Made by a program: the position numbers and the translations under genes. From Labyrinthula sp. Ha (taxonomy: Eukaryota > Sar > Bigyra > Labyrinthulida > Labyrinthulaceae), in assembly GCA_015227615.1 (NCBI GenBank), contig JAALGZ010000001.1, forward strand, positions 2,604,001 to 2,668,000: a DNA stretch of 64,000 nt, read 5' to 3'. The notes beneath the pieces were generated by a model, which saw nothing but the letters and a program-made list of their open reading frames with translations, had not been told where the DNA came from and did not search any database. Below, in pieces: positions 7,396-56,156 of the stretch (positions are counted from its first letter, which is position 1; every line of letters begins with the position of its first letter).

Positions 7396-10300
7396 ATGCA
7401 AATCTCGCGAGAGGAAGCTAATACAGAAATATCCAGGAGACGTCATAAACTTCCTCAAATATTGCTCGCTGCCTATCCTTATGGCCATGATTTTTCAATA
7501 GACACTAACTACAAGGATAGAATTCTATTGCGTGGTTCAAAAAAAGAAAATTGCACAACTAGACCCGCGGTTGTAACCACTAAGAAAGAGCCAGATTTAG
7601 ATTGGGTGAACCAGCTTCTCCTTAAACTTATTTCTGATGAAAATTTGGATTTCGATTTTGGTGCTCTAAAGACTAAAGTAATGGAACTGATCAGGTCTAG
7701 TAAAAGTAGTGAGGAGCTTCAAACCGATTTGCTGGATTTGCTTGGTTTCTCTGACACCAGCCTAGAGTTAAGCGAAAGACTCCTTGCTGAAAGAGATGAC
7801 ATAAAAAAATCTTCTTCCACTACATCCTTGAATTTTCAGGTTAAGAACAAGTCTAAGCACAGAAGCATCACTGAACTATTGGAAGACACCATTAATTCAG
7901 AAGTTAGTCAGACTAAAACCTCCATTGGTAAGAATAAAAAACTTGTAGATTTCACCTCTATCAAAGCTGATGATGGATATAAAGCACCTGTTTATGGCTC
8001 AAATGTTGGATCCAGGGCAGCCGGTTTAAATGAAGAAGTTATGAAACATACTTTTCTTACTGGGCCACTAACTCAGATAAAACAAACCAAAGAAAAAAAT
8101 ACTAAAAATCTATCAATAGTAGAATACTCCCAAGTTGTTGTTTCGCCTTCGAGAAAATTTCCGCAGAAGCACGTTCTTGTTCAAATAAGAGAGTTTGAGA
8201 AAGAGTTTTCACCTGTTTTCAAGGGAATAAAGACATTAAACACTATCCAGTCTGTGGTGTTTCCTGTTGCATATAAAGCAAAGAACAATTTGCTTGTATG
8301 TGCTCCGACTGGTATTTTGCTGTTATGTTTAATATCTCTTAGGAGCTGGAAAGAGTAATTGCGCAATGATGACTATATTGGGTGAAGTCCGTAGTAATTC
8401 AAGCCGCGATGAGAAGCAAGAGTTGATCATTAATCGGAAAAAGGTTAAAATTATTTATATTGCACCAATGAAAGCGTTAGTGAATGAAATAGTTACAAAG
8501 TTTAGCAAGAGATTGAGTTGTCTGGAACTTAAGGTGAGAGAATTAACTGGTGATATGAGTCTGACCAAGAAGGAGATGGATGAAGCAAACCTTATAGTTA
8601 CCACCCCTGAGAAGTGGGATGTCATCACAAGGAAAGTAACTCCTTCTACGGGAAGCGATGCAACCGGATCGCTTTCGTCTGTGGTTAAATTGGTTATCAT
8701 TGATGAAATACATCTTCTAGGCGAGGATAGAGGGTATGTTCTTGAATCCATAATTAGCCGGACTATGCAAAATATAACCAGAAATCAAATACCGGTACGA
8801 ATAGTAGGTTTAAGTGCAACATTACCGAACTATCTAGAAGTTGGAACTCTAATTAAAGCAAATCCAGTTGAGGGAATATTCTACTTCGGTCCTGAATATA
8901 GGCCGGTTCCACTCACCCAAACATTTGTCGGAATAGATAACATGAAGACACAAGCATCTGCACTGTGTGCAAGTGGCAGTGGGAAGAATGTAGGTGCTAT
9001 TCAGTCGCAACTAAGAAAGACTCTACTCAATGAGCTGGCTTGGAAGAGTGCACTTGAGGTAGTCGAAACAGGAAACCAAGTTTTGATTTTTGTTCATTCC
9101 AGAAAGGATACTTCTGGTACTGTGAGAGCATTCTTTGATTTGAATAAAGAAAGCTTAAGTGATGCTGGTAGCAAATTCCTGAATACTCAAAATTTACTGT
9201 CCGCCACTGCACGAAACAAATTTTCAGGAAGAGTAAAGCAGTCAAAGAATGACAATTTAAGAGAGTTCTTTGAACATGGCTTTGGGATACATCATGCTGG
9301 TATGTTAAGAACAGATCGTAATCTATCTGAGGAACTTTTTGAGAAAAAGGCTATATCAGTGTTGGTGTGCACTGCTACATTGGCCTGGGGAGTTAACCTT
9401 CCTGCACATTGCGTAATTATTAAAGGAACTGAGGTCTATACCCCAGACAAACCTCAAAGTATAAATGGGTATACCAATATATCTATGCAAGATGTCTTGC
9501 AGTGCTTTGGTCGTGCTGGTAGACCAGGTTTTGATGACCATGGAAAAGCCATTCTAATTTCAGAAAAAACTGAAATGCGGCAATATTTAAAACGTCTTAC
9601 GAACCAAATACCTCTAGAGTCAAATCTTGTACAACATCTGCCAGACATTCTGAATGCAGAAATAGTTTCTGGGTTTGTATCTAATGTACGAGAAGCTGTG
9701 GAATGGCTAGGTTACACATTTTTGTTTGTTAGGATGATGAAGAACCCTTTGGCATATGGAATCACGACCCGGGAGAGACAAAATGATCCTACTTTTATAG
9801 AGCAAAGAGTTCGCCTCATTATAAATGCTGCTGCTGCTCTTGATGATGCTAGAATGGTTCAATTTGTTCACAGGATGCGCTCACTTATGGGTAACACGCT
9901 CGGTGGCTTTCTTTCTGACAAAGATGAAGTTATGAATGCATCTTTTGGTGTCAAACATCTTGGTCGTACCGGAAGCATATTCTACATTGATTATAGAACC
10001 ATTGAACTTTTTGACAAGGGTTTGAAGAGCACACTCTCAGAAGGTGAAATTTTGTCACTCTTATTTCAGGCAACGGAATTTAAGAATATTCAGGTAAGAG
10101 AAGACGAGATATCTGAACTTCGATTCCTGAAACGGAAACTTCCGCTACCTATTGAAGAAGGTTTTGACAGCCCAATCGGAAAATGTATCCTTTTGTTTCA
10201 GTCTTTTATTCTACGCAAGGAACTGAAAACATTCACTTTGGTTTCTGATAGAAACTTAATCTCTCAAAATACCCCTCGGATCCTTGCAGCTTTATTGGAT

Positions 10301-13300
10301 ATAGCTATAAACAAACAAGTTGGTGCTGTGGTCCACTATTTACTCGCCTTCTCTGTGGCAATTAAACAGCGAGTGTTCTATCCACCATACTCGCATTGTT
10401 TATATCAATTTGTTCCCAGGCACCTGAAATATGAGGTTCTGCAAAGTCTACTGAACCATCCAGAGTATCAAAATATAGGAACTTTGGTAGATGAGAGCGT
10501 GGATACTTTAGCAGAAAAGCTGGGTTCTAATCTATATGCTGAAAAAATTAAGCAAGCTGTCAATTTAATTCCTTACTGCCATCTAAAATCAAAAATACGG
10601 CCGCTAGCGCAAAACTGTTTGAAAGTAACTCTCTCTTTAAGACCAGAATTTACTTGGCGTAAGGAGATTCATGGCGGAGTTCAAGTGTTTCATATTTTCA
10701 TTGAAGAGAGTTTACAGAATTCGGCTCATATGCACATATATCACAAGTTCTTTTTATCATATGATAACTATGTATTTCTCAAACAGAACAAGTTTTATCA
10801 AAGCTCTACAGAGCATTGTATAAATATTTCATTCTATGTTCGTGTCCCTGGATTTTCAGGTCGGCAGCTTTTAGTAAATGTTGTAAACGATGCCTTTTTT
10901 GGATCTGATATTCTTGTGCATCATAATTTAGACGAACTTGTAACCGTAAGAGATTTTAATGTGTCTCACAGTCAGCTAAATCTGCTCCCTCTGCCAGTTA
11001 CAGTTTTTCCAGAATTTGAGGCATTGTATGGTAGTGATACAACTGAACATTTTTTTGATTTAGTTCAAACTTCTCTCTTTCATGAGTTGTATTACACTAC
11101 TGAGAATAAAGCTATACTTATACCAAGTGGTAGGGTTTTTCTTTTTGTTTCACATTTAGGCTATAATAACACACTGCTACGAGATCTTTGTATTGCTTCT
11201 ACCCTAAGGAAAGGTCTTGACGTTCTACTTGTGGTAAATAGTCCCTCCCAAAAGACCATCACATTATCTCATAGCTATAAAGAATCTCTAGGATCACTTG
11301 ATTACAGCGTAAAGCTTATTTCACAAGGATCTCCTGAATTGAAATCCCCAACACTATACATCTCCAGCGTGCAAGACTTTACATTACGTACAGGATTCAT
11401 TGAATCAATAGCTAAAAAGTGTGGTGTTTTAATCCTAAATGATGTTACAGCGCTTCAAATGGCAAGTGGGCCTTCCATTGAACACCTCTTAATGAGTCTT
11501 ATACCTAAAACCATAAAAGCTGAGAACCTTACAAGATTAATACTATTTGGCCGTGGGATAAGTAACATGGATGATTTTGGTACCTGGATAGCCCCACCAA
11601 AAATAAACAGTCTAAGAAACTCACGAGCATCTGCGGTATTACATATCCAGAGAAGTGACAGGTCGAAATTGACACCAATTGAGCTTGAGAGAGAAAAGGT
11701 AAGGGCAAAGTATAGACAAAGAATTGGAACTCCAGTTTTTAAAGCTGGTTGTGTTGAAAGTACACAGCGTGATCATATAACTTTTCATGGGTTTCCAGAG
11801 CGCAACCTACAAGCCCGTCTTGATGAAATGAATAAGCCTGTCTTCCACCTCTTGAGCAGTGAGAATAGGTCTGGATTATCTGTTATCTTTGTTAATGACA
11901 GTGGTGAAAGCCAACGCACCGCCGTTGCAATATCTTCCCTCTTAGCTACTTCTCTTAACCCTTTTTTGTTTTTCCAAGCAGATAAAGATGCTAGTATTTT
12001 TTCAGACCTGGTAGAAACCCCAAAGTTAAAAAGTGTTATGAATTTCGGTATCGGGTTTGTTTCTGATGCTTTATCAAAATCAGATATTGCAACAATAAAA
12101 AATCTTGTTAGTGAAGATGCGTTAAGAGTTGTGGTTCTCCCAATCAATATGATTAATGTGTTTGAAACCTTGACTTCAGAATTGACTATAGTCAAAGGGT
12201 TAGAATACAAGAGTACGCTTTTGAAAAAGAATAACCTTTATACCTTTCGAGAAATATCTCTCTTTCTGGGATATACTGGAAAACAAAAAAATGTCCACTT
12301 TTTCTGCAAACACTCCCGAGTGGGATATTTTGAAATGATTGTGGATGGAAAGTTTCCAGTGGAATCTAATCTCATAAAGGAGTTAGACGAGTTCATTTTT
12401 CGGCGACTTAAGATAGAAGGGAAGATATCTAAGTCCTCTATTCTAGAGGGTCTGCAGTACAGTTTCCTCAGAGTTAGGTTAAAAAGCAATCTTTCGTATT
12501 ACGTAGATTCAACAGAAACGACGGATCTTGATGCCGATGATTTTTTGGCTACTGCTGTGGAACAGTCTTTGTTAAAGTTAGAAAAACTTAGTATTGTTCG
12601 CAAAGATGCCGATGGTATTTTTACATCCACTGAAATTGGACAGACAGTGAAATCGAGAATTGAAACAGTTGGTGAAGTGTTAAGTATCCTCCAACGTCTG
12701 GCTCTAGCTTATCCAAGCCTAATTGATATTTTTGTTGGAAAAACTGCGAAGAAAGTAGTTAATAATCCGGTACAGGAAATTATGGAGGAAACTCTTTTGG
12801 GACTTTGTGGAATACTAGAGATAGGCTTTCAAGGTTATCGAATCAAGTTATGGAGACCTATAGACGAGTCTGATTTTATGAATAGTTCTCTTTTGCCTGA
12901 GAAAACTACCTTTCAAACATCCGCTAGTGATATATCCAAAACAATTATCTCCATGTTGAAGAGAAAAAGGAGAAATTGGAAGAGAAATGGCCAGTTATCA
13001 CAATTCTCCACTTATATATCCAGTACGCTTTCCATTGTTGCCGATATCCTGTTGCATCGAAAAGACGCTAATTTGTATCTATATTGGTTAAAGCTTGTAC
13101 AATTTCTGGAATGCCAAAGTTGGCCGAATATTACTCTTGCCGAATATATTAGATCAGATTTTACTCTCCCAATTGGCGAAGAAATTGGCAGGGAAGGTGT
13201 TCTTGCGTTCAATAATAGACTTACAAAATTTCTGGTGTCTACGTCAAAGATAGATTTAATCGACTATCTTGCTAGTAAGAACATTGGAGTTAAGTGCACA

Positions 13301-13630
13301 GAGGGTATTCTTAGCAAGATGACTAACTTTCCGCGCATCTTAATGGAACTGGAACTGTTTGAAAAGGACGTGGTTGTTAAATTATCATTTGCACCAAGTC
13401 CTATTCGCAAACTTCCCAGGGAAAAAAACAAAAACATAATGTTCACTCTTTTTTGTGTTCATGGGAATAGAATCATCGATAGTTTTTGTGTTAAATTCAA
13501 AGGAAAACGTGAAGAAAAACGTTTCATATTTAATGCAGAAAAGGTTACATCAACAAGAAAAGTAGAAGCATTTCTTATATCAACAACAAATTTGGGGCTC
13601 GATTTACATCAGTTCTTAGAGCTCTCTTAA
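7396..13630 (+). CDS. ASCC3: ASCC3/Slh1-like Ski2-type RNA helicase with degenerate second cassette
   Basis: Two exons (7396-8311, 8343-13630) joined over a 31-nt intron (8312-8342) give 2067 aa, close to the usual ~2200. The intron interrupts Walker A, and splicing restores APTGAGKS (residues 303-310); this decides the gene model. Cassette 1 has TPEKWDVITRK, DEIH (426-429), SATLPN, 'FGIHHAGMLRTDRN', 'TATLAWGVNLPAH' and 'QCFGRAGRPGFD', then a Sec63 unit. 'NPLAYGI' and 'GMLRTDRN' favour ASCC3 over Brr2. ASCC3 family members unwind nucleic acid in ribosome-collision clearance and alkylation repair. Cassette 2 (from about residue 1225) keeps the fold pattern but lacks Walker A and the DExH box ('LILNDVTAL') and the 'HHAG' and 'WGVN' motifs; a second Sec63-like region ends the protein. 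The start is the first in-frame ATG. It converges with the next gene, 7 bp away. Confidence 0.88.
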
Positions 13631-17872: not shown

Positions 17873-18740
17873 ATGGAAAAATCAAAAAAAAGAAAAAGAA
17901 GTACTTCAAATAAGGGTAATGCAATTTCATTGAACTATTATGCAGTCTCACATGGCCGCATTCCCGGAATATATTTTACAGCAGAGCATTGTAGGTTGCA
18001 GGTAGAGAAGTTCCCTGGATCACGACATAAAAAGTTTAAAGATATTTTACAAGCAGTGGCTGTTATGCAGGATGCACCTTTTAAAATCCCAAAATCTTCT
18101 CCTGGTGCTATTTCCAAAACATCAGATCCCACATTGTCCAAGACCAGTGATTCTGCTTCAAGTCAGACCACCAAGAAACATCGAATTGCTTCCGTAGTTC
18201 GAAAAAAATTGATTACTTCTAGGAATCAGAGCCCACAGTCATCTATTGAAAAAAATTCTAAATATTTACTGTATACGAATGGGAGCTGCATGTGGAACGA
18301 AATGTCAGGAGCGCAGGAGCCACCTTCAGGCTGGGGATATATCATTGTAGACAAGTTCGAACACATTATATTTCAAAGCTTTGGAAAAGTTTGTTTAGCA
18401 GGAAATGTATCTGAAACTTTTGGAGCCGAAGTGATTTCTAACAATACTGCAGAAATTATTGCGATAGGAAGAGGTTTAGAGTATTGTTTGAATAACCTTA
18501 TTCTGAAAGGTAACAAGAAACTACTTGTTCGCAGTTACTCTATCTATGCTATTTGTTTCAGTTAAAGGGACGCTGAATGGAGTGAAAAATAGAGCTTTAA
18601 TATTATATGTTCGAGGAATTCTGAACAAGGTCAAGATAAAAGTGTTTTCAGTTTCTTTTGAGTTTGTGAAGGGACACAGTACTGCCGCCTTCAATAGATT
18701 AGCAGACGCCTTGGCGAGAAAGGGCGCTTCTTCAATTTAG
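17873..18740 (+). CDS. RNase H1-like protein (hybrid-binding domain + RNase H fold) with altered active site
   Basis: Exons 17873-18533 and 18562-18740 join over a 28-nt intron (18534-18561, GTTACT...TTTCAG) into 279 aa. The N-terminus is basic, then a hybrid-binding domain 'YYAVSHGRIPGIYFTAEHC...QVEKFPG' (about 22-55), a Ser/Thr linker, and an RNase H fold with 'LYTNGS', 'NNTAEIIAIG', 'KGHS' and 'RLADALARKGA'. This is cellular RNase H1, which removes RNA from RNA-DNA hybrids. Two of the four metal-binding acids are not where expected: the first Asp is Asn136 (YTNGS for YTDGS), and the third (usual TDS motif) is absent after splicing; without splicing the same stretch reads 'VRSYSIYAI' before losing frame. 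Glu of TAEI and the last Asp remain. It may be an inactive hybrid-binding protein or a decaying gene. Confidence 0.75.
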
Positions 18741-43261: not shown

Positions 43262-45313
43262 ATGCTTCCTGGTTTCTTAAGAAAACAGGTGAAGACTTCC
43301 CCTGCAGATATTACAGGAACAATGCCTCCTCCTATGACTCCAAGTGGACAGCCCAGGAGCCTATCGTCGCCTACAGCAGTTGGTTTTTTCCGGGTAACAG
43401 GAAGTACGGGTCGTTTGTCAGGCTCCAGCAACAGGGGCAACTATGAAAAAAATTACAATAGGTTATCCAAATACATTCCTTTTCTGCTATGCTACCTTCG
43501 TGACTCCAATCATAAGTTTGTCAAATTCTGCTTCAGACAATTCATACCAGAAATAGCTGTATATAAATCTGAGTTTCTTTCCATAGGTTCTGAGTTTCAA
43601 ATGTTTACAAGAGTGGAAAACTTTTTGAAAGGATTTTGTTATCTTTTAAAACAGAGAAAGAGGAAGAAGAACCCTTCAAGTAACAACATTAGCGATACTC
43701 CTTATCTTTCGCATGGAAGTTCTAATTCCCCTCAACGGCTAAAAAAGCGTGAAAGATTGTCACATTTGTCGGTTGAAAACTCAGGCGCGTTTGGAAAGAA
43801 GCAAAAAAGACTTCCCTCAACTCTGGAACTTGAAGAACTTTTCTCTACATGGGAGGTATCTACTTTATGTGGGGGTTTATTGAGAATGTTACAAGTTACC
43901 AAGTTGTTACAAAAGTTACCGCCTCAAGGAAATGGACTTGACTTGACATATGCTGTGGAGTGGACAAGAAAGTTAGACTTTGATGATTATAGAGTTATAT
44001 CTGAGCTGGCAAGTTTTTTTTATGATCTGGACCTGCCAACACTTTTTGGTGGAAGGTATGACCTTGGCTCACCAAGTTTTCCATATTTTGTCAAGAATGT
44101 TTCCAATATATTCCCCTCCTTAGTTGTCCCATTTTCTTCCTCTGCGTCCGGACTACGTTTCACCAAAGCTAACTTAAGTGGAAGGTTTATTGATTTGGAG
44201 CGTGAGCTGGTTGATTTCTTTCAATGCATTGATCCTGACTATTGCAGTGTCGCTCACAAACTTGTACGATTTTACGAGTTACCAGATTTAGCCCTCGGAG
44301 TAATTTACAAGTTTAAGGCACTGCCATACGCATGGAAGGCAAGACTGCTTCATTTACAATCTCCTGAGAAGTGGCTAAATAAAAGAGTGCTGAAGAAGGT
44401 TCGGTTTATTCAACCCAACGCTCAAGTGTCATTGAAAATTTTATTAACCGAACCGCCTAAAGAAGTTCAAATAGAAATGTATAAACGACAGAAGCGTTTC
44501 CGGGACGATAAAAAATCCTTGATTATAAAGGAATACATTGCCTTTGAGAAAAGGTATCTGAATATCCTCACTCGTTTTGTCACTGATTATCTAAGTGAAA
44601 TTGAAAAGATCAGTCAGTGTCAGCTTGGACCTATGCCACAGGAGGCGCTAGGGCTTACGCCTCAAGAGCTTGAAAGGGTTATGCAACCTATTAAGCCCTT
44701 GGTAAAGAGTCTGCAACGTTGGATGATCACTTTGTCCATTGTGACTTTGCTACCTGGTTCTCAAGGGGTTATTCGCTATGAGTCCAAGTCTAAATTACTC
44801 GCCACACTTTTTTTAGAGAACAGTCAGCGGTTTCAGCTATACCTTCAAGGGTACTATGTTAACTATAAAAACAACAAGAATACCTTAGAAGAACTAGTAA
44901 CAAGATTTAATATACGGCCTAGTGAGGGCGTTCATAAATCTCCAAGAGATCCGCAAAACTTCTTAGAGATTTATGCTCAGTTTCAGAAGATGATAAGTCA
45001 AACGAATAATAATGTACTGGGTTATGATGATTCCCGTACTGAAATGCCTGATCTGGATAGTGTGTTGGAGGCGCCTATTCATCACACGCCCAAGATTGGC
45101 TTGTTTTTTGAACGCTTGCTTAAGGTCGAAGAACCGCATTCACCAGAAGCTGAACTTCTTAGTAAAGCTCAAAAAGAATTTAATAACGTCATGAACCTTG
45201 TGAACGCTGAAATAGAGGATACTCCTATTAAGAGAATAGAAAAGAATGCCTCTATTTATTCTGCTTCAAAGTCAAGTTTTGCTTTCTCCAGGTTATTCTC
45301 AAAAAACCAGTGA
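43262..45313 (+). CDS. RhoGEF (Dbl-homology domain protein)
   Basis: A single-exon frame of 683 aa starting MLPGFLRKQVKTSP, with a Pro/Ser-rich first 60 residues. Residues about 415-655 read as a DH domain: CR1 'IIKEYIAFEKRYLNILTRFV', the middle block 'ATLFLENSQRFQLYLQGYY' and CR3 'LEAPIHHTPKIGLFFERLLK' followed by 'EAELLSKAQKEFNNVMNLVN'. DH domains load GTP onto Rho-family GTPases and so control actin and cell shape. I see no following PH domain; the protein ends about 25 residues after the DH helix bundle. The region 190-330 is helical and unidentified. The stop is 267 bp before the channelrhodopsin start, same strand. Confidence 0.8.
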   Translation: MLPGFLRKQVKTSPADITGTMPPPMTPSGQPRSLSSPTAVGFFRVTGSTGRLSGSSNRGNYEKNYNRLSKYIPFLLCYLRDSNHKFVKFCFRQFIPEIAVYKSEFLSIGSEFQMFTRVENFLKGFCYLLKQRKRKKNPSSNNISDTPYLSHGSSNSPQRLKKRERLSHLSVENSGAFGKKQKRLPSTLELEELFSTWEVSTLCGGLLRMLQVTKLLQKLPPQGNGLDLTYAVEWTRKLDFDDYRVISELASFFYDLDLPTLFGGRYDLGSPSFPYFVKNVSNIFPSLVVPFSSSASGLRFTKANLSGRFIDLERELVDFFQCIDPDYCSVAHKLVRFYELPDLALGVIYKFKALPYAWKARLLHLQSPEKWLNKRVLKKVRFIQPNAQVSLKILLTEPPKEVQIEMYKRQKRFRDDKKSLIIKEYIAFEKRYLNILTRFVTDYLSEIEKISQCQLGPMPQEALGLTPQELERVMQPIKPLVKSLQRWMITLSIVTLLPGSQGVIRYESKSKLLATLFLENSQRFQLYLQGYYVNYKNNKNTLEELVTRFNIRPSEGVHKSPRDPQNFLEIYAQFQKMISQTNNNVLGYDDSRTEMPDLDSVLEAPIHHTPKIGLFFERLLKVEEPHSPEAELLSKAQKEFNNVMNLVNAEIEDTPIKRIEKNASIYSASKSSFAFSRLFSKNQ

Positions 45314-45580
45314 AGTGAATCATAAGGTATGAGATCGTGCTTGGGGTGAATGGTTTGCTGTGTTGAATATTATATAGATCCTAGATACAATACTTGTGAA
45401 GAATGTATAGTAAATAAAACAGTGTATTTTGTTGGAGACGGTTATACTACTCTACAAATATACTAGTTTATAAAGCTTAAAGGACAAAGTTTACTTTTCA
45501 GGCAAGATCATTTCTTTCTGTATACTTAATAAGGGCATCATTTCATTAGCCGTTATAAAGAAAACCAAAAAGCATAAAAA

Positions 45581-47226
45581 ATGGAGAACGGTGAAACTTC
45601 CTCGCCTACCGTAAACTTAAATAACAACTTTAAAGATAATGATGACTTGGCCACATTTATGCAAGGAATGGTTATGGTAACATCAGTCTTTCTTGCAGGG
45701 TTCCTTATTATTCAGAAGCTTAGAGGAAAAGGGGCCCCAGAAGCAATTTATGTTTCCTTGGTTACAGTCATTGTCTACGGCACAAACATTCTTACGGGAA
45801 AAGGTCTTACATGGGTTACCATTACAGATGGCCTAGAAGTTCCGCTAGGTATGTCCTTTCTCTAGTTTATTTTTAGGGCGATATTTCTCGTGGCTAATGA
45901 CGTGCCCCGTTATTCTTATGCAGTTTCTACGTCTATATGAGTCAGCTTCAGGCTTCTTGGCAAAGGAAGCTCAAACCCTAACGATAATTCTAGATCAGGT
46001 TATGATTGTCACAGGAGCGTTTGGAGCAGTTTCTCAAGGCGCCCAAAAATGGGTGTTCTTTCTGCTTTCATTTGCAGCGGGAACAGGCCTTTACGCAAAT
46101 ATGTTTTACCTTGCAAAAGAGAGTTATAAATTGTTTCCTCCAGAAGCCAGAACTTCATTGCTAATAGTAAATCTACTGTTCTTCTGCTCCTGGATAATAT
46201 TTCCTATTTTGTGGGTAGTGGGTTCTCCAGGACTTAATGTAATTGATCAAGAATCAGATACGATCGCTCACTGTATAGGTGATTTTGTTGCAAAGAATGT
46301 GTTTGGTTTAGCTGCATGGTATGTTAGATGGAATTTTGACTATTCCAACACAGGTAAAAATAAAGATCCGAATGGTAAGAACATGGCAAAACTTGGACAA
46401 GGAATTGCAGGAAGCAATGTAGGTTTAACTGACGCAGATGTAACTGATGCAAAGGAGAAACCTTTTAGTATTATTTTACTAGGAGGAGACATGCTTGTGC
46501 TTAAGTGCATGAGCTTGATGCTTAAAACAGTAGAGGTAGAAGTTTTTATCACAAATTCTTCGCAGTTGGCTAAGGCTAAAATGTCGATGGAGAAAAGTGA
46601 TAAATTCGATGCAGTACTGTTCTGTCCTACGACAGTTCAATCATGTACTTCTTGTTCTCTTATTTTAGAACTTAGATATTTCTGTTGAGCAATTAGAGGA
46701 CTTAAGCGAGTATATTTGCATGCCGCCATTTAAAATTCCAATGCTTGCTGCTTTTTTTAATGTAGAAGGTGAAATAGATGATCCAGGTGAATATGTTCAT
46801 GGAATCGTACCAAGACCGTTAGATGAAGAAGCCTTCAAATCAACCTTACTTCAATGGAGACTTACGGCGAAACTATGGAGAAAAGTTGCTGACAGTGTCC
46901 AAGCAATTGAAGGTCACGGAATGCAAACAATTAACCAGACACCTGGACAACGGTTTACACCTCAAGGCCAGCAGAGCCCGAACTACGAAAGAGAATCTGG
47001 TTTCTTATTTGGTGGACAAATTGTGCCACAGTTAAAGCATGACAAAGCAAGGCAAGAACCAGCAAAAAAAAACGAGAGTAGCAAGAACAGAAATAAGCAA
47101 CCAAAGATCTCTTCTCAAGAGAGGCCAACTAGTATGCAAGATAACTATGAATCTGATACTTGGCGTCCAATTAGCTCAACAAAAAGCAGGAACGTTCCAG
47201 ATAGGCTACAATATGACTCAAATTGA
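45581..47226 (+). CDS. channelrhodopsin (anion-type features) fused to a degenerate response-regulator receiver domain
   Basis: Exons 45581-45848, 45877-46634 and 46669-47226 (introns 28 and 34 nt) give 527 aa. A short polar N-terminus precedes seven membrane helices (about 25-245). TM3 reads GRYFSWLMTCPVIL: Arg91, Ser94, Cys99. TM4 has Asp129, so the Cys-Asp gating pair of channelrhodopsins (C128/D156 in ChR2) is present. TM7 has GDFVAKNVFG, with counterion Asp225 and retinal Schiff-base Lys229 at the ChR2 spacing. Ser94 replaces the Glu123 counterion of ChR2, as Ser97 does in GtACR1, which points to an anion channel. Residues about 285-400 resemble a receiver domain (FSIILLGGD, FDAVLFCPT, GIVPRPLD), but the phospho-Asp position is Cys339 and the conserved Lys is Arg391. 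A Gln/Asn/Lys-rich disordered tail ends the protein. Light-gated current in the eyespot or plasma membrane is the likely role; the receiver function is inference. Confidence 0.88.
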
Positions 47227-47262: not shown

Positions 47263-50214
<2,952 letters not shown>

Positions 50215-54068: not shown

Positions 54069-56156
54069 ATGGGGCAAGAACAGGCTACTCTGAAAAGAAG
54101 ATTCAGACAAGGCGGTTTCTATGTTACAAGATCTCATACGGGTAGTGTAAGTAAATATTTTTTTGATGTTTTTGTTATTTTGATGGTTCTGTTCTACTTT
54201 AAGGTTTTTATCGAAGAAGCATTTTACACCCGCTTAGAAATGTATTTTGCTGAACTTTTTTGTTAACCTTTTTTTTATTTCTTAGCTTACCTTTCACCTG
54301 TTCCTGAAAACCAGCAGGATGAAGAAAATAATTCAAAAAATATTGCTGAAAGAACAATGAAGGAAATCCAACCAAAAAACCTGAATAAATCGCTAACTCT
54401 TCCAGCTAGAAGCTCTCGCAAACTTCCCCCCAGAAAGACCAGAACTACAAATCCCCGGCCGACGGATATCAATTTTCAGAGACAGAAATCGTTTGTTGAT
54501 CTTAACCCCATGGATAGAACAAAAGTTGAACACGTTCTGAACAGACTGCTATCCTCACAAGATGATGAAAACTATGACGCCAAGAGAAGGTTCCAAAGAT
54601 CTGCTTCTATAGCAGAGTTCGAACCTTTGAATGGAAAGAAAACAAAAGTTATTCAAGAAATAAGCCTAATTAAACGGATAGGAAGCGGTTCCTTTGGATC
54701 TGTGTGGAAGGCTGAAAATTTAAAGACGCAGAAGACAATTGCAGTGAAACGAATGATTGGGAACAGTTTTCATGAGCAGCTCAGTTTTTTGCGTGAAGCT
54801 GAAATATTAAAACTATCAAATCATCCAAATGTGTTGAAATTCTTAGGTTTGTATGTAAAAAAGGGTTCTTTAGAGGTTGAAAACATGGAAGAAGTTTCTC
54901 CGGGAGCTCTGAACGAAAATTTAGAACCTGGTTGGGTCGTCTATCTATGCACAGAGTATTGCCGATATCGAAATTTAACCCATCTGTTGAGAAATAAGAA
55001 TGTGAAGTATATTCCATGGAATGTACGCATTAAGCTTTCCTTGGATATAGCGAAAGGTGTGAACCATTTACACAGTTTAAAAGTTATACACAGGGATTTG
55101 AAGTCGGAAAATATTTTGTTGAAACCTTTGAAAAGAGCGCGCATGAGGAATTTGGACCATGAAATGAAAAAATGGAAGCATAAAAAGGAGCTCAAGGAGA
55201 TAAGGCGTGAACATAAGAAATATCGAGGGTTAGGCCTAAGGTTAGGGGAAGAAATTAACCTTGAGAAATCAGGCACTAAAACCTTGAGAAAACTTAAATC
55301 ACGCCGATCAAATGCATTTCGTTCTTTTTTAACTCAAAAGAACTCGAGAAAGTATCATTATAATAGGAAAAACCATGATGGTGCTTCCTCTGTGGCCTCT
55401 TCACAAGATCTATCGTCTACTGATTCAAGTGATTCTGACACTGATTCAGATTTTTGGTCAGATGAAGAACATCCTGACCATACACAGCAACCCAAGTATT
55501 CCACAAGGCATTGGGAGAGAGTTTTGAACTCTCGGGCAATAGTTGCTGATGTGGGTCTTGCTCGATTTTTTAAGGCTAGCTTGGCAAAAAAAGAAAAAGG
55601 AAACAATTTGGAGTTTATACAAAAGCAGAGGCAGGAAAGGCTGACAATTCGTGGAAACCCCTGGACTATGGCGCCAGAACTATTACGGAATCCTTCTATG
55701 ACGAGTTATACAACTGCTTGTGATATATTCTCATTAGGTGTTGTGTTTTTGGAGATATGCACGAGACTGAAAGCTGCAGATCTACCTCGAGCCGGAGATT
55801 TTTCTCTTGATTTCAAAGAGTTTGAGGAACTACCGGTTGAGCTAAAGGAAAACTCTGATGAACAAGAAGATGGTATGGACTCAGCCCAAACTAAACTTAT
55901 CAGCTCAGAGAGTTTGGGGTCACGAATACAGCGGCCGAGTGGAGAAAGCTATTTATTTAAAGATTGTTGTCCAGAGAAATTTAAGCAGTTAGCAGCAGAT
56001 TGTGTGAAAATGGCGCCTGAGCATAGACCTAGTTCCTCAGAAATAGTAAAGCGTCTTCAAATTATTTTAAAGGAGTATAATAAGGAAACACATAAAAGCA
56101 AAGAACCCACTCTTACAGAAAAAAAATCAATCCAACTGGAGAACCCTTCTATATAG
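54069..56156 (+). CDS. tyrosine-kinase-like protein kinase (LIMK/TESK-like) with large insert
   Basis: The main exon codes for a kinase: glycine loop GSGSFGSVWKAE, VAIK-type lysine (IAVKRM), HRDLKSEN, then GNPWTMAPELL and 'DIFSLGVVFLEI'. GNPxxMAPE is typical of LIM/TES kinases in the TKL group, which often phosphorylate cofilin. Two things are odd. About 150 Lys/Arg/Ser/Asp-rich residues are inserted between the catalytic loop and the magnesium loop, and the magnesium loop is DVG rather than DFG (VADVGLARF). Asp is kept, so activity is likely. The acceptor of a 5' intron lies at 54285 (TTTCTTAG). Exon 1 probably starts at ATG 54069 (MGQEQATLKRR) with donor near 54142; at about 144 nt this intron would be unusually long, so a small internal exon may be hidden. 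An alternative start is ATG 54357. Confidence 0.75.

Follow-up and report, generated by a model that had tools for sequence, protein, structure and literature searches.

A labyrinthulid channelrhodopsin-like protein with a receiver-matching tail that lacks the phosphorylation site and likely serves as a docking module

A channelrhodopsin-like gene and its relatives

The window, a 64,000-nucleotide stretch of the genome of the labyrinthulid Labyrinthula sp. Ha, contains at positions 45581-47226 of its forward strand a single channelrhodopsin-like gene, which runs from an ATG at 45581 to a stop at 47226 and encodes a product of 527 amino acids (aa). The predicted protein joins a seven-helix channelrhodopsin-like part to a tail that matches response-regulator receivers but lacks their phosphorylation site. 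We consider it likely, with moderate confidence, that this tail serves as a phosphorylation-free docking module. The gene is laid out as follows (nt, nucleotides).

45581..45848, forward strand: exon 1, residues 1-89 and part of 90, the N terminus up to the start of helix 3
45680..46334, forward strand: seven-helix microbial rhodopsin domain (PF01036), residues 34-242, with intron 1 inside
45849..45876, forward strand: intron 1, 28 nt, GT-AG
45877..46634, forward strand: exon 2, helices 3-7, linker and tail-domain strands 1-3
46293..46295, forward strand: Lys229, the retinal Schiff-base lysine, by alignment to K257 of ChR2
46635..46668, forward strand: intron 2, 34 nt, GT-AG; alternatively 46645-46675, 31 nt
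46669..47226, forward strand: exon 3, the remaining tail domain, low-complexity end and stop
46912..47226, forward strand: C-terminal end, residues 424-527, rich in Gln, Asn, Ser and Lys and unconserved

Scored with a family profile that excludes the window sequence, the 34-nt and 31-nt models of intron 2 reach 198.6 and 198.5 bits, respectively, compared with 64.8 bits for read-through; the frame also stays open with other splice choices. Exon 2 by itself encodes both helices 3-7 and the first three strands of the tail domain.

The same fusion recurs throughout the genome. In the 50.8-Mb assembly of 153 contigs that contains the window, seven matches to PF01036 belong to five opsin genes, and a search with the tail domain returned six matches, all of them downstream of the opsin part within these same five genes. 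The four paralogous tail copies are 45, 36, 33 and 33% identical to the window copy. The frames of two paralogues, C57 (562 aa) and C1a (544 aa), run uninterrupted through opsin and tail, and the fusion is therefore independent of the splicing guess. Five more database proteins, P0002-P0006, have the same architecture (P0006 without its N terminus); their contigs measure 1.8-4.7 kb and come from the sources labelled lgn and jgi. A wider search with an eight-row tail alignment (A1) gave, among the matches listed, only relatives that were already known, and no relative was found in viral contigs searched with A1 and with P0072. A first-pass annotation of this DNA had proposed that one gene joins the channel to the tail, and had named co-occurrence of the two parts in other proteins as support. 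The gene model, the PF01036 match and the uninterrupted frames of C57 and C1a bear out the former, and the latter is what we found in all five opsin genes and in the five database proteins.

Introns in these opsin genes are tiny, measuring 28 and 34 (or 31) nt in the window gene, 28 (or 25) nt in C1b and 31 nt in C62; the loci concerned are the window gene plus L004, L005 and L012. Judged by eye, C62 may hold a third intron, of 27 nt, within its tail domain. In the public EukProt set, the gene model P0001 (862 aa, annotation edit distance (AED) 1.00), at window positions 43262-47226, combines an upstream RhoGEF gene (43262-45313) with a middle piece of the opsin; absent from it are opsin helices 1-3 and the tail's second half, and the model is apparently a mis-joined prediction.

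PF01036 (Bac_rhodopsin) matches residues 34-242 with 115.4 bits against a cut-off of 24.6, and the hallmarks of channelrhodopsins are present: Lys229, Asp225, a helix-3 TCP motif with Cys99, and the Cys99/Asp129 pair. Among solved chains, the nearest to this seven-transmembrane (7TM) part are KnChR (9.4e-21) and then Chlamydomonas ChR2 (1.4e-18), with the best anion channelrhodopsin-1 chain (1.2e-12) and bacteriorhodopsin (3.1e-12) more distant. The sole pore glutamate of CrChR2 that is retained is E82 (E54 in the window gene); E83 is replaced by A55, E90 by T62, E97 by N69, E101 by G73 and E123 by S94. Because most pore glutamates are gone, the protein would probably be an anion channel, but this pattern has been described as insufficient by itself to decide selectivity (PMC8406140). 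The paralogue C1a (L003, P0007) keeps the retinal Lys and its Asp and has lost the Cys-Asp pair (Ser117, Leu147). The counterion is likewise lost (Leu112), as is the helix-3 Arg (Thr109), yet C1a has the most receiver-like tail, and it may be a sensor instead of a channel.

Receiver-like features of the tail

The elements of the tail that are discussed below are listed here.

From 46431, forward strand: predicted lead helix, residues 275-283, with element boundaries transferred from a structural model of P0002
46464..46911, forward strand: predicted pseudo-receiver domain, residues 286-423, with intron 2 inside, placed by profile match, with boundaries from the P0002 model
46482..46490, forward strand: Gly292-Gly293-Asp294, the former metal-binding acidic pair being Gly-Gly and Asp294 the third position
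46623..46625, forward strand: Cys339 at the phospho-acceptor position, by profile alignment to receivers
46813..46815, forward strand: Arg391 at the receiver Lys position, by profile alignment to receivers

The tail matches receivers by sequence profile, not by single-sequence Pfam match. When a ten-sequence profile of the tail family was compared with 30 receivers from a Halomonas genome (33 matches, 30 with loci), the match had a probability of 92.9% (P 3.7e-7, score 44.7) over 105 columns and ran from strand 1 into helix 5. By comparison, two other α/β families used as controls, universal stress proteins (17 sequences) and short-chain dehydrogenases (28), scored 12.3 and 11.7, and the top score among 60 column-shuffled versions of the profile was 18.1. 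The match to receivers without C1a, the sole member with Asp at the acceptor position, had a P of 4.2e-6. In single-sequence scans, the window tail matched no Pfam family even at E 10, leaving PF01036 as the sole Pfam family in the protein; one of seven scanned tail domains, apparently that of C1a, matched the receiver family PF00072 at E 0.0018.

An AlphaFold2 model of the P0002 domain (pLDDT 88) matches CheY-type receivers. Its elements follow the order β1-α1-β2-α2-β3-α3-β4-β5-α5, with a loop where helix 4 would be, and with a predicted helix 5 of 29 residues. In a Foldseek search with this model, 39 of 40 matches at E ≤ 0.001 were receiver-bearing, as judged in part by title. The predicted fold of the tail is that of a receiver.

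Receivers are defined by five catalytic residues, DD, D, T and K (PMC12632262). In the window copy all five positions are replaced, by Gly292, Gly293, Cys339, Phe371 (at the Ser/Thr site) and Arg391. Judged from these residues, the tail would be of the pseudo-receiver or aspartate-less type, with a predicted loss of phosphorylation. Across ten relatives, position 339 holds C, T, D, I, A, V, A, I, V and V, whereas nine have R and one has K at position 391; the Cys is therefore incidental and the basic residue is the retained feature. The least eroded copy is that of C1a, which has Asp at both 339 and 293. The stretch from the lead helix to the end of helix 3 has 5 invariant columns out of 85, whereas the remainder, up to the end of helix 5, has 11 out of 64, and selection seems to maintain the β4-β5-α5 half of the domain.

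These results support the reading that the first-pass annotation had proposed for the tail, with two corrections. It had called the tail receiver-like from pattern only, naming a fold unrelated to receivers as refuting; both the profiles and the predicted structure of P0002 gave a receiver instead, so that pattern is no longer the sole basis. Its view that the residues needed for phosphorylation are lost agrees with the five replacements described above. It placed and numbered Arg391 correctly at the conserved Lys, and the same is true of Cys339 at the acceptor position. Cys339 as a conserved substitution was rejected, the residue being found in one of the ten relatives. Also rejected, by the alignment to receivers, was Asp294 as a residue of the acidic pocket: it aligns with the third Asp of 'DDD', and the pocket pair is Gly292-Gly293.

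Docking and other possible roles of the tail

Exon-by-exon searches of the genome gave no match to PF00072 at E ≤ 0.001 and none to HisKA at E ≤ 1. Two-component input to the tail is thus unsupported and phosphorelay input unlikely, which favours phosphorylation-free docking or anchoring. Under such a mechanism, light would open the channel, probably for anions, and the tail would dock a partner through its β4-β5-α5 face, placing or clustering the channel. The tail would thereby fix the photoreceptor in a particular position, such as close to a cilium, and would not be switched by phosphate. One match to IFT57 and five to the carotenoid-oxygenase family in the genome are consistent with a cell that bears cilia and can produce retinal.

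Several points weigh against a receiver-derived docking module. The modelled copy is that of P0002 (42% identical over the protein), the window domain being interrupted by intron 2, and helix 4 of the classical α4-β5-α5 face is absent from that model. No scanned copy reaches the PF00072 cut-off of 30.2 (C1a has 16 bits and the window copy none), and a sequence-profile search of the PDB is topped by an unrelated binding protein (0.066), with a receiver second (0.65). Searches made exon by exon could miss a split receiver or kinase. The conserved surface is equally compatible with dimerisation or gating control, and the KnChR tail alters channel closing (PMC7902849), pointing toward a role in gating. 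The absence of a curated Pfam match, the missing helix 4 and the top PDB match would suit an α/β domain that merely resembles receivers and is unrelated to them. We regard this as extremely unlikely: among the three α/β families compared, the 105-column match is specific to receivers, the alignment puts Arg391 on the receiver Lys and Cys339 on the acceptor Asp, and one of the seven copies does match PF00072.

The tail could alternatively be an internal gating brake, packed under its own channel and setting the closing speed without a partner. Truncation of the KnChR tail slows closing from 10 to 130 ms (PMC7902849), and the photocycle of GtACR1 is about threefold slower in the full-length than in the tail-less protein (PMC10637977). 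However, the KnChR effect maps to residues 272-317, directly after helix 7, with longer variants unchanged, and CrChR1 and CrChR2 conduct unchanged without their tails (PMC7902849); the window protein has about 30-45 linker residues between helix 7 and its tail domain. Gating control of this kind is in our view unlikely. We likewise hold it improbable that the domain is mainly an oligomer clamp, dimerising through the β4-β5-α5 face and the long helix 5 to hold protomers, given that channelrhodopsins are already dimers or trimers and that the 7TM part suffices for channel activity (PMC12448745). The 29 residues predicted for helix 5 in P0002 would be in keeping with such a clamp, as would several top VIA-align matches, which are receivers with long post-domain helices (NtrX, AmiR, PleD and DgcR), and the phosphate-free dimerisation of many pseudo-receivers (PMC12632262). 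Cys-driven and ligand-driven pseudo-receivers are known from bacteria (PMC12632262), and C1a retains Asp at the acceptor position and at 293, so the tail might still act as a switch without a two-component phosphorelay, for example through oxidation of Cys339 or a ligand in the old pocket. With Cys339 in one of ten relatives and positions 292 and 293 freely variable, this is very unlikely. Docking without phosphorylation is the role that we favour.

The window holds further genes. On the opposite strand, 37 bases past the opsin stop, positions 47263-48273 encode the C-terminal portion of a DEAH-type helicase, with HA2 and OB-fold domains. A 1754-residue open frame at 8366-13630, with helicase, winged-helix and Sec63 Brl domains, is of the SNRNP200/Brr2 kind; another, at 17873-18565, has an RNase H1 N-terminal domain (PF01693, E 3.1e-11). 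At 54357-56156 lies a protein kinase whose domain is matched in two stretches with a charged insertion between them.

Green-algal tails and known systems

Among 40 natural green-type channelrhodopsins whose tails are 150 residues or longer, 33 have a related domain. For the other seven (P0044, P0056, P0058, P0059, P0061, P0068 and P0079), the tail has no match to the green profile or to receivers; these count against a universal tail domain, as does the cytoplasmic domain of GtACR1, reported to be disordered (PMC10637977). The 40 were drawn from 74 matches. Left out were 24 entries (23 engineered by name, plus P0017, a 310-residue form of ChR2), eight natural proteins in which the helix-7 motif was unmatched (P0012, P0021, P0025, P0027, P0034, P0041, P0070 and P0077) and two with short tails (P0065 and P0066). 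Seven of the eight motif-failing entries, all except P0041, carry the tail domain. In the 41-sequence green profile, P0071, P0073, P0079 and P0080 were cut by eye without a profile match, P0079 being among the seven misses, and P0078 was extended by eye past its match. The tails of P0058, whose name includes an organism beginning 'Tetr', P0059 and P0061 have a high content of Met, Gln and Gly and no receiver-like domain. Alone among the 16 aligned green domains, that of P0078 (source lgn) has Asp at the phospho-acceptor position.

Compared directly, the green and window tail families gave a modest match (75%, P 2.5e-5). We tentatively raise the possibility that green-algal and window-genome channels inherited one ancestral channel-receiver fusion, a relic of a rhodopsin formerly connected to a phosphorelay, whose receiver would now serve to position the photoreceptor by docking without phosphorylation.

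Channelrhodopsins are the main optogenetic tools and are usually studied without their tails. The tails of the window family and of green algae have each been profile-matched to the receiver fold, with shuffle and other-fold controls. With domain boundaries and a mutable surface now available, the long-unexplained role of the tail becomes directly testable, and the tail would offer a natural folded handle for channel targeting in cells. That role has been called elusive, and tails have been reported to have no significant mutual homology (PMC7902849). Volvox channelrhodopsins have three conserved tail regions, for which no fold is given in the available sections of the source (PMC10637977). 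Within the accessible text of the open literature, we found no receiver domain described in a channelrhodopsin tail, an earlier account in the subscription literature remaining possible; nor did we find in the open literature a paper on the ChR1 tail with eyespot and rootlet placement. Pseudo-receivers and channelrhodopsins are each known, and their combination appears to be new.

The closest known systems share parts of this arrangement. KnChR of Klebsormidium nitens, the best PDB sequence match of the window 7TM part, also has a long cytoplasmic tail, described with a FimV-like region (PMC7902849), unlike the window tail. Chlorophyte channelrhodopsins (Volvox ChR2, P0009 and relatives) keep Glu at most pore positions, unlike the window gene. 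Their tail domain has helix 4 and sits behind a much longer linker, again unlike the window family; its acceptor position is mostly His or Ala (7 and 6 of 16 rows) and its Lys position is Gly in 11 of 16. The position of E90 is non-Glu in the anion channelrhodopsins (ACRs) of Labyrinthulea and of prasinophytes (PMC8406140), as it is in the window gene (Thr62), whereas the counterion position, Phe in RubyACRs (PMC12448745), is Ser94 here. Bacterial pseudo-receivers such as AmiR are soluble regulators, whereas the window domain is borne by a seven-helix photoreceptor and has no output domain following it. The histidine-kinase rhodopsins of green algae (HKR/Cop5 type) likewise have a rhodopsin and a response-regulator domain within a single polypeptide (PMC7693036), but there the receiver is preceded by a histidine kinase and often followed by a cyclase, neither of which is present in the window protein.
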